From an uncultured Olsenella sp. (GTDB lineage: Bacteria > Actinomycetota > Coriobacteriia > Coriobacteriales > Atopobiaceae), in assembly GCA_900314575.1 (NCBI GenBank), contig OMVS01000001.1, positions 1 to 64,000 of the forward strand: a stretch of 64,000 bases of DNA, written 5' to 3'. Each line of letters begins with the position of its first letter. The stretch's first letter is position 1. The notes beneath the pieces were generated by a model, which made no database searches, had not been told where the DNA came from, and saw only the letters and a program-made list of their open reading frames with translations. Below, piece after piece: positions 30,706 to 37,165 of this stretch. A program made the position numbers and the translations under genes.

Positions 30706-33474
30706 CTACTTCTCGAGCTTCTTGGGGCCGCCGTTCGACTCGATCTTCGCCTGGGCGCAGGCGAGGCGGGCGACGGGCACGCGATAGGGCGAGCAGGACA
30801 CGTAATCGAGCCCGAGGTCGTAGTACATGTGGATGGAGTCGGGGTCGCCGCCGGTCTCGCCGCAGACGCCGCAGACGATGGTCGGGTTGGCCTTGTGGCC
30901 GCCCTCGACGCCCATCTTGACCATCTTCGCGACGCCGTAGTCCAGCGTCTCGAACGGGTTGGTCTTGAGGATCTTCTTGGAGAGGTACTGCGGGATGAAG
31001 GCGGACTCGACATCGTCGCGCGAGAACCCGAAGGTGGTCTGCGTGAGGTCGTTGGTGCCGAAGGAGAAGAAGTCGGCGTACTGGCCGATCTCGTCTGCGG
31101 TGACGGCAGCGCGCGGCAGCTCGATCATGCAGCCGATCGGGATGTTGAGCTCGACGCCCTCGGCCTCGGCGACCGCCTTGACGCCGGCCTCGACCTGCTC
31201 GCGGACGAGCTTGAGCTCCTCGACCGTGGAGATGAGCGGGACCATGATCTCCGGCTTCGGGTTGAGGCCCTGCTTGATGAGGTGGGCAGCGGCGCTCGCG
31301 ATGGCGCGGACCTGCATGTCGTTGAGCTCGGGGTAGACGATGCCAAGGCGGCAGCCGCGCAGGCCGAGCATGGGGTTTGCCTCCTGGAAGGAGTCCAGGC
31401 GGGTCAGGCGGTCGCGCATGGCCTTGAGCTGGGACTCGGTCTCACCACGGCCCTCGGCGCGGGCGATCTCGACCGCGAGGTCGCGCGGGTTGTCGAGGAA
31501 CTCGTGCAGGGGCGGATCGAGCAGGCGGACGATGACCGTCTTGCCGTCCATGGCCTTGAACATGCCCTCGAAGTCGCCGGTCTGCGCCGTCAGGAGCTGG
31601 CCCAGGGCCTGCTGCTTCTGGCCGTCGTTGTCGGCGAGGATGAAGGACTGGATGATCTGCTTGCGGTCGCCCAGGAACATGTGCTCGGTGCGGTCGAGGC
31701 CGATGCCCTCGGCGCCGAAGTCGACGGAGAGCTGCGCGTCCGCGGGGTTGTCGGCGTTGGTGCGCACGCCGAAGATGCGGCCGCGGGAGGCGTCGTGACG
31801 GACGTCGTCCGCCCAGGTGAGGATGGTCTCGAGGTCGCCGGTCAGAGACGGGCGCGTCAGGGGCACGGCGCCCTTGATGATGTCGCCCGTGGTGCCGTTG
31901 ATGGAGATGATGTCGCCCTCGTGCAGGACCACGTCGGTGCCGGAGACGACGACCTCCTTGGCCTTGGCGTCGATCTTCAGCGCCTCGGCGCCGCAGACGC
32001 ACGGCGCGCCCATGCCGCGGGCGATGACGGCGGCGTGCGAGGTCTTGCCGCCGTGGGACGTGAGGATGCCCTCGGCCGCGACCATGCCCTTGAGGTCGTC
32101 AGGCGTGGTCTCCCAGCGGACCAGGATGCAGGGCTTCTCGCGGTTCTTGTAGGAGACGGCGGCGTCGGAGGAGAAGACGACGGCGCCGACCGCGGCACCG
32201 GGCGAGGCGTTCATGCCCTTGGCGATGACGTCGTACTTTGCCTTCGGGTCGAACTGCGGGTGCAGGAGCTGGTCGAGCTGCTCGGGAGCGACGCGCATGA
32301 TGGCCTGCTCCTTGGTGATGCGGCCCTCCTCGACCATCTGCATGGCGACCTTGAGCGCGGAGAGCGCGGTGCGCTTGCCCACGCGGGTCTGCAGCATCCA
32401 GAGCTTGCCCTCCTGGATGGTGAACTCGAGGTCCATCATGTCCGCGTAGTGGTCCTCGAGGATCTCGAAGACGTGATAGAGGTCCTTGCCCGCCTGCTCA
32501 AGGCCAGGGGTCTTGGGGAGGTCGGCGATCGGCTCGGTGTTGCGGATGCCGGCGACGACGTCCTCGCCCTGGGCGTTGACCAGGAAGTCACCGTAGCGCT
32601 CGTTGGTGCCGTCGGCGGGGTTGCGCGTGAAGGCGACGCCGGTCGCGGAGGTCTCGCCCATGTTGCCGAAGACCATGACCTGGACGTTGACGGCGGTGCC
32701 GAGCGTGTCGTCGATCTTGTTCTGCTTGCGGTACAGGATCGCGCGCGGGGTGTTCCAGGAGCCGAAGACGGCCTGCTCGGCAAGGCGCAGCTGCAGCAGC
32801 GGGTCCTGCGGGAAGGAGGCGATGCCGTCGGGCGCGACCTCGGGGTGAGCCTGGGAGTCGACGTTCTTGGCAAAGATGCCCTTGAAGGTCTCGGTGAGGT
32901 CCTTCAGGTCGGCCGCGTCGAGCTCGGTGTCGAGCTTCACGCCCTTCTCGGCCTTCTTCTCGTTGATGGCGTCCTCGAAGAGCTGGCCGTCGACGCCCAT
33001 GACGACGTCGGAGAACATCTGGATGAAGCGGCGGTAGGAGTCCCAGCCGAAGCGCTCGTTGTTTGTCTTCTTGATGAGGCCGAGGACGGAGCGGTCGTTC
33101 AGGCCGAGATTCAGGACCGTGTCCATCATGCCGGGCATGGAGAAAGGCGCGCCGGAGCGGACGGAGACCAGGAGCGGGTCGTTCTCGTCGCCGAGCTTCT
33201 TGCCCATGCGCTTCTCGAGGTCCTTGCGATATTCGTCGATCTCGTCGAGAACGCCCTCGGGCCAGACGTTGCCCGCGCCGGAGTAGGCGACGCAGGTCTG
33301 GCAGGTGATGGTGAATCCCGGAGGAACGGGAAGGCCGATGTTAGCCATCTCGGCAAGGTTGGCGCCCTTGCCGCCAGTGATCCACTTGGCCTCGTCGACG
33401 GTCTTACCGGCAACCTCGGTGACGTTGTTGCCGGCTTCGTCGTGACCGAAGCGGTAAACGTGCTTCTCAGCCAT
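30706..33474 (-). CDS. ppdK: pyruvate, phosphate dikinase
   Basis: A 922-residue enzyme that interconverts pyruvate, ATP and phosphate with PEP, AMP and pyrophosphate. The N-terminal ATP-binding domain has ITGGKGANLAEMANIGLPVPPGFTI, the swivelling domain has the phosphohistidine in GGKTSHAAVIARGMGAP, and the C-terminal PEP domain has GTNDLTQTTFGFSRDD and CGVCGETGGD. The threonine two residues before the histidine (the regulatory phosphorylation site in PPDKs) is kept. ATG at 33474 has AGAAGGAG upstream. A half-length PPDK regulator homologue is the next gene upstream. Confidence 0.98.
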   Translation of the reverse strand: MAEKHVYRFGHDEAGNNVTEVAGKTVDEAKWITGGKGANLAEMANIGLPVPPGFTITCQTCVAYSGAGNVWPEGVLDEIDEYRKDLEKRMGKKLGDENDPLLVSVRSGAPFSMPGMMDTVLNLGLNDRSVLGLIKKTNNERFGWDSYRRFIQMFSDVVMGVDGQLFEDAINEKKAEKGVKLDTELDAADLKDLTETFKGIFAKNVDSQAHPEVAPDGIASFPQDPLLQLRLAEQAVFGSWNTPRAILYRKQNKIDDTLGTAVNVQVMVFGNMGETSATGVAFTRNPADGTNERYGDFLVNAQGEDVVAGIRNTEPIADLPKTPGLEQAGKDLYHVFEILEDHYADMMDLEFTIQEGKLWMLQTRVGKRTALSALKVAMQMVEEGRITKEQAIMRVAPEQLDQLLHPQFDPKAKYDVIAKGMNASPGAAVGAVVFSSDAAVSYKNREKPCILVRWETTPDDLKGMVAAEGILTSHGGKTSHAAVIARGMGAPCVCGAEALKIDAKAKEVVVSGTDVVLHEGDIISINGTTGDIIKGAVPLTRPSLTGDLETILTWADDVRHDASRGRIFGVRTNADNPADAQLSVDFGAEGIGLDRTEHMFLGDRKQIIQSFILADNDGQKQQALGQLLTAQTGDFEGMFKAMDGKTVIVRLLDPPLHEFLDNPRDLAVEIARAEGRGETESQLKAMRDRLTRLDSFQEANPMLGLRGCRLGIVYPELNDMQVRAIASAAAHLIKQGLNPKPEIMVPLISTVEELKLVREQVEAGVKAVAEAEGVELNIPIGCMIELPRAAVTADEIGQYADFFSFGTNDLTQTTFGFSRDDVESAFIPQYLSKKILKTNPFETLDYGVAKMVKMGVEGGHKANPTIVCGVCGETGGDPDSIHMYYDLGLDYVSCSPYRVPVARLACAQAKIESNGGPKKLEK

Positions 33475-33640: not shown

Positions 33641-33683
33641 AAGAAGAAGGGAGAAACCCTATCATATAAGGTTTCTCCCTTCT
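33641..33683 (-). terminator. terminator between the PPDK regulator homologue and ppdK
   Basis: A 14-bp perfect stem (33645-33658 with 33670-33683) with an 11-base AT-rich loop, followed by TCTTCTT on the minus strand, 38 bases after the upstream gene. The unusually AT-rich stem makes the transcription break between the two genes plausible but imperfect. Confidence 0.8.
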
Positions 33684-33721: not shown

Positions 33722-34120
33722 CTACTTGGCGAGCTGGTCCCTCAGGGCGCCGACCTTGTTGTTGGGCTCTTCGCCGGAGAGCGTGGCGATCACCGAGATG
33801 GCAGGCCCGAGCAGGTCGATCGAGGGGATGCCCCTGCTCTCGAGCAGCCCGCGCACCTCGCGGCGCATGTTCTTGTCGCTGAAGGTGTGGAAGACGGCCA
33901 TCGGACGGTTCGGCCGGACGTTCTCGTCGAGGAACTTCTCCACCGTCGCCAGGTCCTTCGCGTCGTGAAGGCGGACGATGTCCACGGAGTCCGGCCCGAA
34001 CTGGGCCGCCGCGGCCATGACGACCACGTTGGCCGTCTCGCCTCGCGCGTCCGACATGACGAAGATCAACGGCTTCACGCTCTCGAGTACCACGCCCTCG
34101 TCAAGATCGAGGATGCCCAT
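33722..34120 (-). CDS. half-length PPDK regulatory protein (DUF299) homologue
   Basis: A 132-residue protein that aligns with the N-terminal half of the kinase/pyrophosphorylase that switches PPDK on and off: VMSDARGETA (21-30, family SDxTGETA), AAQFG (38-42), VFHTF (76-80) and IDLLGPAIS (101-109). Full family members have about 270 residues, with a P-loop-like GxSRxxKT motif in the second half; here translation ends and a terminator follows within 38 bases, so that half is absent. GGGAGGAG precedes the ATG. It lies between glyS and ppdK. It may act as a binding or sensing domain without kinase activity, or be a remnant. Confidence 0.8.
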   Translation of the reverse strand: MGILDLDEGVVLESVKPLIFVMSDARGETANVVVMAAAAQFGPDSVDIVRLHDAKDLATVEKFLDENVRPNRPMAVFHTFSDKNMRREVRGLLESRGIPSIDLLGPAISVIATLSGEEPNNKVGALRDQLAK

Positions 34121-34165
34121 GTCTCTCCTCCCAACCCGGAATCAGACCACCGGGGACAATGACTG

Positions 34166-36256
34166 CTACTTTCGGGAGAGGACCGCGAAGTCGGCGACGT
34201 CACGGAAGACGCCGACGAACTTGTTCAGCAGACGCAGACGGTTCTCCCTTACCTTAGTGTCATCGTCCATGACAAGGACGTCATCAAAGAATTGGTCGAT
34301 TGGCTCCCTCAAATCGGCGAGAGCGGCGCAGGCGCCGGTGAAGTCAGCCTCCGCGATGGTCGAGGCCACCTTCTCGGCCCCCTCCTTGCAGGCAGCGAGG
34401 AGCGCGCGCTCCGGCTCCGTCAGGGCCGCCTCGTCGACGTCGTCGCCGAGCGTGGCGTCGGTCAGGTGAGAGGCTCGCGCGAAGGCGGTGGCGAGGTCGT
34501 CGAAGACCTCGGTCTCGCCGGCACGGGCGTCCTCGAGGGCGTGGGCGCGCGCGAGGAACTGCGTCGGGTCGATGACGCCGACCGAGGAGACGGCCTCGAT
34601 CGTGTCGGGCGAGACGCCCTCGTCCTTGGCGATGGAGGCGAGGCGGCCGGCGAAGAAGGACTCCACGTCGGCGGCGACCTTCTCCGCGTCGAACTCGAGG
34701 CCCTGCTCGGCGTAGGACCGAAGCGCCTTGGCGATGAGCCCCTTGAGGTCGACGCCCTCGAGGGTCCTCAGCATCGCGATGACGCCGATCGCGGAGCGGC
34801 GCACCGCGAAGGGGTCCGAGGAGCCGGTGGGCGGCTCGTCGATCGCGAAGAGGCCGCAGATCGTATCGAGCTTGTCGGCGATGGCGACGGCCTTGCCGAC
34901 GGTGTCGCCCGGGAGCTCGTCGCCCGCGAAGCGGGGGCGGTAGTGCTCGGTGATGGCGCGCGAGACGACCTCGGGCTCCCCGGCTGCGGCCGCGTAGTAG
35001 CCGCCCATGACGCCCTGCTGGTTGGTGAACTCGACGACGGCCTGGCTGACGAGGTCTGCCTTGGCGAGAAGCGCCGCGCGCGCGGCGAGCTTGGCCTCAG
35101 CGGCGTCGCCGGCCTCGGTGCAGACCTCGGGCGCGAGGGCCTCCATGCGGTGCGCCTTCTGGAGCATCGTGCCGAGCTTCTCCTGGAAGGCGACCTTGCC
35201 GAGCCTCTCCACGAACTCGTCCATCGGAACCTTGAGGTCCTCCTCGTAGAAGAACTTCGCGTCGTCGAGGCGCGGGCGCACGACGCGCTCGTTGCCGGCG
35301 ATGACCGTCTCGTTGCAGCGCGGGTCGGCGTTGGAGACGATGACGAACTTGCGCGTCAGCCTGCCGTCCTTGTCGTAGATCGGGAAGTAGCGCTGGTTGG
35401 AGAGCATGGAGTCGCAGATGATCTCGTGCGGGACCTTGAGGAACTCCTCGTCGAACTCGCCCACGAGTACCGTCGGCCACTCGCAGAGGTTCACGACCTC
35501 CTCGTAGGTGCCCTTGGGGGTCTCGACGTGGCAGCCGTCCATCTCGGACTCGATCTTCTCGATGCCCTGGCGGATCACCTCGTCGCGGCGCTTCTCGGTG
35601 AGCACGTGCGCGGACTCGAGCACGGCCTCGTAGGCGCTCGGCTCGCTCACCACGTGCTCGCCCGGGCCGAGGACCCTGTGGCCACGGGTGGTGTTGGAGC
35701 TCGTGACGTCCGCGTAGGTCACCGGGACGACCTCGGAGCCGAACAGGCAGCAGATCCAGCGGATCGGACGCACGAAGGTCGCGTGCTCGGAGCCCCAGCG
35801 CTGGCTGCGATAGTTGGGCCACTGCAGGCCCGCGATCGTCGCCTCGGAGATCTCCGAGAGGATCGGCAGGGCCGGCTTGGAGTCGACGTGCAGCTCGGCG
35901 AAGACGTGCTCGCGACCGTCCGCGCCCTCGCGGCGGACGAGCTGGTCGGCCGTGAGGCCCGCCTTGCGCGCGAAGCCCTCGGCGGCCTTGGTCGGCCTGC
36001 CCTCGGGGTCGAAGGCGATGTCGACCGCGGGGCCCTGCTTGACCTCGTTGACCTCGGACGTAGACTCGGCTACGCCGGAGACGATCACGGTGAGCCTGCG
36101 CGGCGACGAGCAGGTGCGGACCTCTCCGTGCGCGAGCCCGGCCTCGTCGAGCTTGCCGGCGACCAGCTTGGAGAGCTGGCGCTGGGCGTTCATGAGCGGT
36201 GCCGAGGGCATCTCCTCGGTGCCTATCTCGAGTAGGAAATCCCTGGTGTCTGCCAT
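34166..36256 (-). CDS. glyS: glycyl-tRNA synthetase beta subunit
   Basis: A 696-residue beta subunit of the heterotetrameric GlyRS. The N terminus FLLEIGTEEMPSAPLMNAQRQL, the FDPEGRPTKAAEGFARKAG segment, and a C-terminal HD-like and anticodon-binding part (YAEQGLEF..., FFDDVLVMDDDTKVRENRLRLLN) match GlyS. It starts one base after glyQ stops. Confidence 0.96.
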   Translation of the reverse strand: MADTRDFLLEIGTEEMPSAPLMNAQRQLSKLVAGKLDEAGLAHGEVRTCSSPRRLTVIVSGVAESTSEVNEVKQGPAVDIAFDPEGRPTKAAEGFARKAGLTADQLVRREGADGREHVFAELHVDSKPALPILSEISEATIAGLQWPNYRSQRWGSEHATFVRPIRWICCLFGSEVVPVTYADVTSSNTTRGHRVLGPGEHVVSEPSAYEAVLESAHVLTEKRRDEVIRQGIEKIESEMDGCHVETPKGTYEEVVNLCEWPTVLVGEFDEEFLKVPHEIICDSMLSNQRYFPIYDKDGRLTRKFVIVSNADPRCNETVIAGNERVVRPRLDDAKFFYEEDLKVPMDEFVERLGKVAFQEKLGTMLQKAHRMEALAPEVCTEAGDAAEAKLAARAALLAKADLVSQAVVEFTNQQGVMGGYYAAAAGEPEVVSRAITEHYRPRFAGDELPGDTVGKAVAIADKLDTICGLFAIDEPPTGSSDPFAVRRSAIGVIAMLRTLEGVDLKGLIAKALRSYAEQGLEFDAEKVAADVESFFAGRLASIAKDEGVSPDTIEAVSSVGVIDPTQFLARAHALEDARAGETEVFDDLATAFARASHLTDATLGDDVDEAALTEPERALLAACKEGAEKVASTIAEADFTGACAALADLREPIDQFFDDVLVMDDDTKVRENRLRLLNKFVGVFRDVADFAVLSRK

Positions 36257-37165
36257 CTAGGCCACCTCCCCCTTCTGGGCGTCATCGTCTTTTCCGGCGA
36301 CCTCGGCGAGGTACGCCTCGCAGCAGAGCTTCGCGACCTCGCGCACGCGCAGGATGTAGTTGGCGCGCTCGGTCGCGGAGATGGCGCCGCGGGAGTCCAG
36401 CAGGTTGAACGCGTGGCTGCACTTGAGGACGCAGTCGTAGGCGGGCAGCGGCAGGTGCGCCCTCAGGCAGGAGTGACACTCCTCCTCGTAGTCGTCGAAC
36501 TTGTTGCGCATCATCTCGACGTTGGCGACCTCGAAGTTGTAGGCGGAGAACTCGCGCTCGTTCTCGAGGAAGACGTCGCCGTAGGTCATGGGCTTGCCGC
36601 CGGGCAGGTAGCTCCAGACGAGGTCGTAGACGGAATCCACGCCCTGGATGTACATGGCGATCCTCTCGAGGCCATAGGTTATCTCGACCGGCACGGGGTC
36701 GACGTCGATGCCGCCCACCTGCTGGAAGTAGGTGAACTGCGTGCACTCCATGCCGTCGATCCAGACCTCCCAGCCCAGGCCCCAGGCGCCGAGGGTCGGG
36801 CTCTCCCAGTCGTCCTCGACGAAGCGGACGTCGTGGTCCTTGGGGTCGAGCCCGATGGCCGCGAGCGAGCCCAGGAAGAGGTCCTGCGAGTCGACCGGCG
36901 ACGGCTTGATGAGGACCTGATACTGGTAGTAGTGCTGCATGCGGTTGGGGTTCTCGCCATAGCGCCCGTCCGCGGGCCGGCGGCAAGGCTGCGGGTAGGC
37001 CGTGCGCCACGCGGCGGGGCCGAGGGAGCGCAGGGTCGTCGCGGTGTGGAAGGTACCCGCGCCGACCTCGCTGTCGTAGGGCTGCATGACGGTGCAGCCG
37101 AGCTCCGCCCAATAGTGTGTGAGCTTCAAGATCATGTCCTGGAAGGTAAGCGAGTTGTCTCTCAT
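36257..37165 (-). CDS. glyQ: glycyl-tRNA synthetase alpha subunit
   Basis: A 302-residue class II catalytic subunit: [60 protein letters not shown] and [19 protein letters not shown] are characteristic. It makes glycyl-tRNA with GlyS. AAAGGA precedes the ATG. Most actinobacteria other than Coriobacteriia use the single-chain type, so this supports the taxonomic guess. Confidence 0.97.

Follow-up and report, generated by a model that had tools for sequence, protein, structure and literature searches.

Could the N-terminal half of a regulatory kinase still serve a purpose once the kinase itself has gone? The question is raised by a short gene on the minus strand (33722–34120) of the window, by which we mean the whole 64,000-nucleotide stretch of DNA from an uncultured Olsenella sp. 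that was analysed. Its frame runs from an ATG to a TAG, encodes 132 amino acids without a kinase/phosphorylase domain, and is preceded by a strong Shine-Dalgarno sequence, GGGAGGAG (34125–34132, minus strand), with the ATG 4–5 nt downstream. The strong ribosome site and intact frame of the preliminary description are thus confirmed. The frame and its translation, the profile match and the relatives all assign the product to the DUF299/PDRP family as a lone N-terminal domain. The PF03618 profile matched the protein at 4.6e-15 and 56.4 bits (cut-off 23.5), although only over profile positions 1–108 of 256, and a profile match to the maize PDRP structure 5d0n reached 1.1e-8; on these scores, the relationship is far beyond chance. 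On the other hand, the NCBIfam full-length model PRK05339 gave 52.8 bits, below its cut-off of 225, which indicates that the half carrying GxSRxxKT is missing. The frame stops upstream of this P-loop, and the C-terminal kinase domain is absent. Judging from this gene structure, the known kinase/pyrophosphorylase reaction cannot be expected of a protein that has no catalytic domain. The preliminary description, which saw an N-terminal half of 132 residues lacking the nucleotide motif, was correct on this point. With its length (~125–147 aa for stand-alone domains), an end shortly past the P-x4-G motif and a genome without the C-terminal domain, the protein has the features of a free-standing domain.

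The genes on the minus strand follow the order glyQ (36257–37165), glyS (34166–36256), short gene and ppdK (30706–33474), with 45 bp between glyS and the short gene downstream of it. Going by their own sequences and by established knowledge, we take the first two to encode the alpha and beta subunits of glycyl-tRNA synthetase; both are open reading frames whose order is kept in relatives. The ppdK product, pyruvate phosphate dikinase (PPDK; TIGR01828, 1210 bits), has an intact catalytic T-S-H, with T478 at 32041–32043 and H480 at 32035–32037. Thus, a PPDK gene with the threonine that the preliminary description called regulatory does adjoin the short gene. However, this threonine is invariant in all PPDKs compared, and the stretch GILTSHGGKTSHAAVIARGM is identical whether the DUF299 protein is full-length or short. 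Being the same with or without the kinase, Thr478 is not diagnostic and is silent on PPDK regulation. For the same reason, the T-S-H context was discarded as a sign of lost phosphorylation. The name "regulator" given to the short form was an inference: the sequence reveals no action on PPDK.

The gap between the short gene and ppdK holds a terminator-like hairpin with an 18-bp stem (33645–33683, minus strand; fold z = −3.6 versus shuffles). It begins exactly 38 nt past the stop codon, where a terminator had been proposed, but it has only a weak U-tract and was not among the calls of a consensus terminator scan. With this hairpin in between, ppdK could be transcribed independently of glyQS. Overlapping the hairpin is a promoter-like match; Rfam gave no match between 29 and 39 kb of the window.

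Is the short frame simply a damaged copy of a full-length gene? The source genome is a 144-contig assembly, so that a sequencing error, a frameshift or a split gene might be suspected. However, the same short form was found in three genomes assembled into one or a few contigs, which excludes an assembly error, and no C-terminal domain was detected in the source genome or in the other short-form genomes. An artefact or recent break is thereby refuted and can be set aside with near certainty. Scanning contigs with the 132-aa protein recovered 16 loci, spread over Olsenella, Parafannyhessea, Atopobium and uncultured relatives, and almost all of them fall into the length class of the short gene. 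In relatives, the gene keeps its position and is about 45–63% identical. In 140 genomes of the Atopobiaceae, the window's own family (Olsenella belongs to the Atopobiaceae, order Coriobacteriales), PF03618 matched in 132. The C-terminal domain, sought with that of a full-length relative as the query, was present in 15 of the 140, the very genomes with a full-length PF03618 match, leaving roughly 117 with the N-terminal domain alone. A separate C-terminal protein was found in none of the other 125 genomes, this one included, and a profile search of this genome at E values up to 10 matched a single place, the short gene itself. PPDK was found in nearly all Atopobiaceae genomes. One genome showed no short gene, but its ppdK sits at a contig start and the absence may merely reflect this edge.

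Two of the checks that the preliminary description had called for gave clear answers: the short form beside ppdK is the rule across the Atopobiaceae, in the same slot, and the missing half does not exist as a separate protein in this genome. Outside the family, every listed match in a 396-genome sample of the phylum lay in an open frame 268 or more codons long, and lone domains therefore appear, on frame length, to be confined to the Atopobiaceae within this sample. Searches of plasmids and phages returned few matches, all below 60% identity, and the annotated ones were named dikinase regulatory proteins. One record labelled "Bacteriophage sp." (MT838023.1, 4270–5745) encodes a CcpN-type HTH-CBS regulator followed by a full-length DUF299 protein and is probably a mislabelled bacterial contig. 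Methanosarcina acetivorans, a control genome, gave a weak PF03618 match below the cut-off; a review describes archaea as being without DUF299.

Where, then, was the kinase lost? The order glyQ-glyS-X-ppdK was kept in the fetched loci, with X encoding ~126–138 aa in most genera and ~280–300 aa in others. The N-terminal domain closes with a P-x4-G motif, and the ppdK-linked short forms end no more than ~15 residues from it. The basal Atopobiaceae genera keep a full-length gene in the same slot. Because the glyS tree was poorly resolved, with outgroup rows inside the Atopobiaceae, it was set aside and the PPDK tree was used instead. In this tree, the full-length genera g28, g22, g8/g16/g2 and g17 branch first within the family; most of the short forms make up a single main clade (support 100). 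Taken together, the comparison shows that an ancestor of most Atopobiaceae lost the catalytic domain, with the break at the domain boundary. Two genera deviate. The full-length g157 falls inside the main short-form clade, and its gene could be a regain, while the short g6 groups with the full-length g8/g16/g2 (AU p 0.04), a placement suggesting that the kinase domain was lost independently a second time. A tree of the N-terminal domain has the same topology as regards g157, g6 and the main clade; AU tests on this short alignment gave values that are no more than suggestive, p 0.10 for a separate truncation in g6 and p 0.07 for all lone domains as one clade. The preliminary description had reasoned that full-length proteins at this locus in relatives would reveal a lineage-specific truncation or a sequencing error. 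Full-length orthologues do exist, both in basal Atopobiaceae and in Coriobacteriia outside the family; within the family, however, the short form is the rule and not a one-off.

Could the short protein nevertheless be a kinase remnant that is slow to vanish? Some full-length relatives have altered kinase motifs (GLSGSAKTP in g5 and GMHRTSKTP in g157 versus GVSRTSKTP), and g156 has HDEG where others have HDDG; such changes are expected if kinase function eroded ahead of its loss. In one of the alignments compared, three outgroup rows were wrong-strand frames, and neither these nor the E. coli PpsR row carry any of the conclusions. However, decay of the remaining half is already contradicted by its retention in ~117 genomes, by dN/dS values of 0.02–0.17 between close species, by the invariance of its pocket residues and by the related lone domains in new operons described below. 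This reading is accordingly very unlikely. These dN/dS values lie in the range of those for glyS and ppdK in reliable pairs; some glyS and ppdK values (omega > 0.4) were ignored, as they came from partial loci and run-off frames. By this measure, the short forms are under strong purifying selection. These results strongly support the earlier view of a stable short form. Among the full-length DUF299 genes fetched, four (L129, L130, L137 and L128) carry GLSGSAKTP, HDEG with GVTRTSKTP, or GMHRTSKTP; from these motifs, they may be pseudo-kinases, intermediate between full-length proteins and lone domains.

Which structure is being conserved? AlphaFold, supplied with 55 lone-domain sequences, modelled the 132-aa protein as a compact domain of alternating beta strands and alpha helices with a pLDDT of 89, and the lone domain is thus predicted to fold on its own. 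The sole significant Foldseek match of this model in the PDB was 5d0n, maize PDRP bound with AMP (probability 1.00, E 1.6e-5, TM 0.71 by query). A profile search of the PDB likewise found only 5d0n, aligned over its residues 122–233, which are its N-terminal part. The top phmmer matches in the PDB, TAL-effector repeats, were rejected as repeat-driven artefacts in which no single stretch passes. In maize PDRP, the two domains are alike in fold, and phosphate-binding loops are present in each; the sole active site is in the C-terminal domain, and the N-terminal domain has been proposed to be allosteric (PMC9138534). For DUF299, hhalign detected no sequence homology between the N- and C-terminal domains, and the shared fold rests on the literature. 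As a lead, the original 5d0n structure paper reportedly places AMP in the loop of the N-terminal domain.

The three motifs that the preliminary description listed are all in place: the SDARGETA loop at residues 23–30 (34031–34054, minus strand), which corresponds to SDGTGWTA of maize PDRP, FHT at residues 77–79 (33884–33892) and IDLLGP at residues 101–106 (33803–33820), both on the minus strand. Eight residues, D24, G27, T29, H78, T79, R86, D102 and G105, are invariant across the ppdK-linked and the paralogous lone domains. Judging from the order of the secondary-structure elements, the SDxxGxT loop, FHT, R86, D102 and G105 would cluster into a retained pocket for a phospho-ligand. In the main short-form clade, the loop now reads SD-A-R-G, with R26 in 93% versus mostly Leu in full-length proteins.

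Might this pocket have a catalysis of its own, such as phosphoryl chemistry through the invariant H78 together with D24 and R86? Position 78 (33887–33889) is His in 100% of the Atopobiaceae, in full-length and short forms alike and in the paralogous lone domains too, whereas 94% of the remaining full-length proteins have Tyr there, and this speaks for the idea. But since the His is common to full-length and short Atopobiaceae proteins, the change from Tyr is older than the loss of the kinase domain. Moreover, the only active site of maize PDRP is in its C-terminal domain (PMC9138534), and no significant fold match other than PDRP was obtained; we regard a catalytic lone domain as improbable. 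His at this position also occurs in two full-length Coriobacteriales proteins from outside the Atopobiaceae.

Is the domain tied to PPDK at all? Many Atopobiaceae genomes have one or two extra lone domains away from ppdK. On the domain tree, these extra domains make up a single clade (100/99), divided into three groups, A, B and C. The group A domains, at fourteen of the loci compared, lie beside a glycyl-radical-enzyme activase; their further neighbours are a PFL2/3-type glycyl-radical enzyme, a fructose-6-phosphate-aldolase-like protein and often a DeoR-family regulator. The enzyme has a GCVE motif and is closer to lyases/dehydratases than to pyruvate formate-lyase. A close group A protein lies within ~1.5 kb of the enzyme gene in 16 of the 16 genomes that have such a protein, and at least 10 genomes have an equally close glycyl-radical enzyme without it, which makes group A an accessory of the glycyl-radical cluster. 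Group B domains (five loci) adjoin deoC, in some loci with transaldolase, transketolase and a DUF218-like gene, and usually with a GntR-family regulator. Group C is found in mixed settings (L109, 6049–6468; L116, 5984–6412; L141, 6036–6464): near a phosphopentomutase-like gene, an esterase and an AI-2E family transporter in two genomes; in a third, a tyrosine phosphatase and a LytTR regulator are encoded nearby. Paralogues in other metabolic operons suggest that the domain is useful, and can do its job, without the kinase.

The same paralogues, whose neighbours include regulators of the DeoR or GntR family and unrelated enzymes, raise the alternative that the partner which the short protein serves as sensor or adaptor is not PPDK but, for example, a transcription regulator or another enzyme, and that the adjacency of the short gene to ppdK is merely historical. 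In three g4 genomes, one further genome and the g5 genus, ppdK has moved off while the DUF299 gene is still beside glyS, so that PPDK need not be the partner. YqfL of B. subtilis, a full-length DUF299 protein, modulates the repressor CcpN, and this also counts towards a non-PPDK partner. However, the ppdK-linked form has no adjoining regulator gene, and the linkage to ppdK is retained in most genera. A different partner is the main, if unlikely, alternative. A further idea, that the short protein pairs with a full-length DUF299 protein as a dimer partner or dominant-negative, could apply to the one genome that has a full-length gene at ppdK plus a group B lone domain by deoC. A full-length copy is missing from nearly all short-form genomes, though, and for the genome of the window the idea is excluded; as a general account it is barely conceivable.

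We infer the ligand and the partner of the lone domain from its structure and its neighbours. The domain would hold a phosphate-containing ligand in its loop, with AMP or another phosphate compound as the leading candidate, and would act as a small, non-catalytic regulatory subunit, binding the enzyme encoded next to it according to the ligand level. At the 33722–34120 locus, this enzyme would be PPDK, regulated without being phosphorylated, and the reversible threonine phosphorylation of PPDK driven by DUF299 would be absent from short-form bacteria. PPDK is the likeliest partner, since most genera keep ppdK as the adjacent gene and since PPDK or PEP synthase is the target of the ancestral family. 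That the short protein is such a kinase-independent, phospho-ligand-binding subunit acting on PPDK is about an even prospect. AMP is made or used by PPDK, and glycyl-tRNA synthetase makes AMP and PPi; given this chemistry, adenylate sensing would suit the operon, a role that we offer as speculation. With somewhat less assurance, we propose that the Atopobiaceae have a family of free-standing sensors, which shed the kinase probably more than once and might serve as subunits for the PPDK, glycyl-radical-enzyme and deoxyribose/pentose-phosphate operons. If this were true, PPDK would be controlled in these bacteria without covalent phosphorylation by DUF299.

These considerations bear on how DUF299 is read in genomes and in the literature. 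A DUF299 match in these bacteria does not imply a kinase, and automated naming as "kinase/pyrophosphorylase" would mislead. A review states that all PPDK-bearing bacteria have a DUF299 homologue, with the plant mechanism in Listeria (PMC8100219); as the kinase domain is absent in most Atopobiaceae, this statement cannot hold there for DUF299 as a kinase. Our full-text literature search, subscription papers aside, for DUF299 or for Atopobiaceae together with PPDK returned no title or abstract on lone N-terminal domains. That the N-terminal domain of PPDK regulators is allosteric has been proposed solely from the plant crystal structure, and natural kinase deletions that leave a conserved lone domain in ~117 genomes make its function testable in isolation.

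How does the short protein compare with known systems? Like the PDRP/DUF299 proteins of maize (PDRP1, 5D0N) and E. coli (PpsR, PMC2817694), it has the homologous N-terminal domain with the SDxxGxTA loop, the same predicted fold and a gene beside ppdK, whereas these proteins also have the catalytic C-terminal domain with the GxSRxxKT P-loop and DDG. HPr kinase/phosphorylase, by a review's description, resembles PDRP in being a P-loop kinase/phosphorylase and in the allosteric function proposed for its N-terminal domain (PMC9138534). The closest counterparts are the full-length DUF299 proteins of basal Atopobiaceae and other Coriobacteriales (fourteen loci compared), which occupy the same glyQ-glyS-X-ppdK slot and, within the Atopobiaceae, share the FHT, R86 and DLLGP-type motifs, but which have 280–300 aa and an intact kinase P-loop (with altered motifs in g5, g156 and g157) where the short form has ended.
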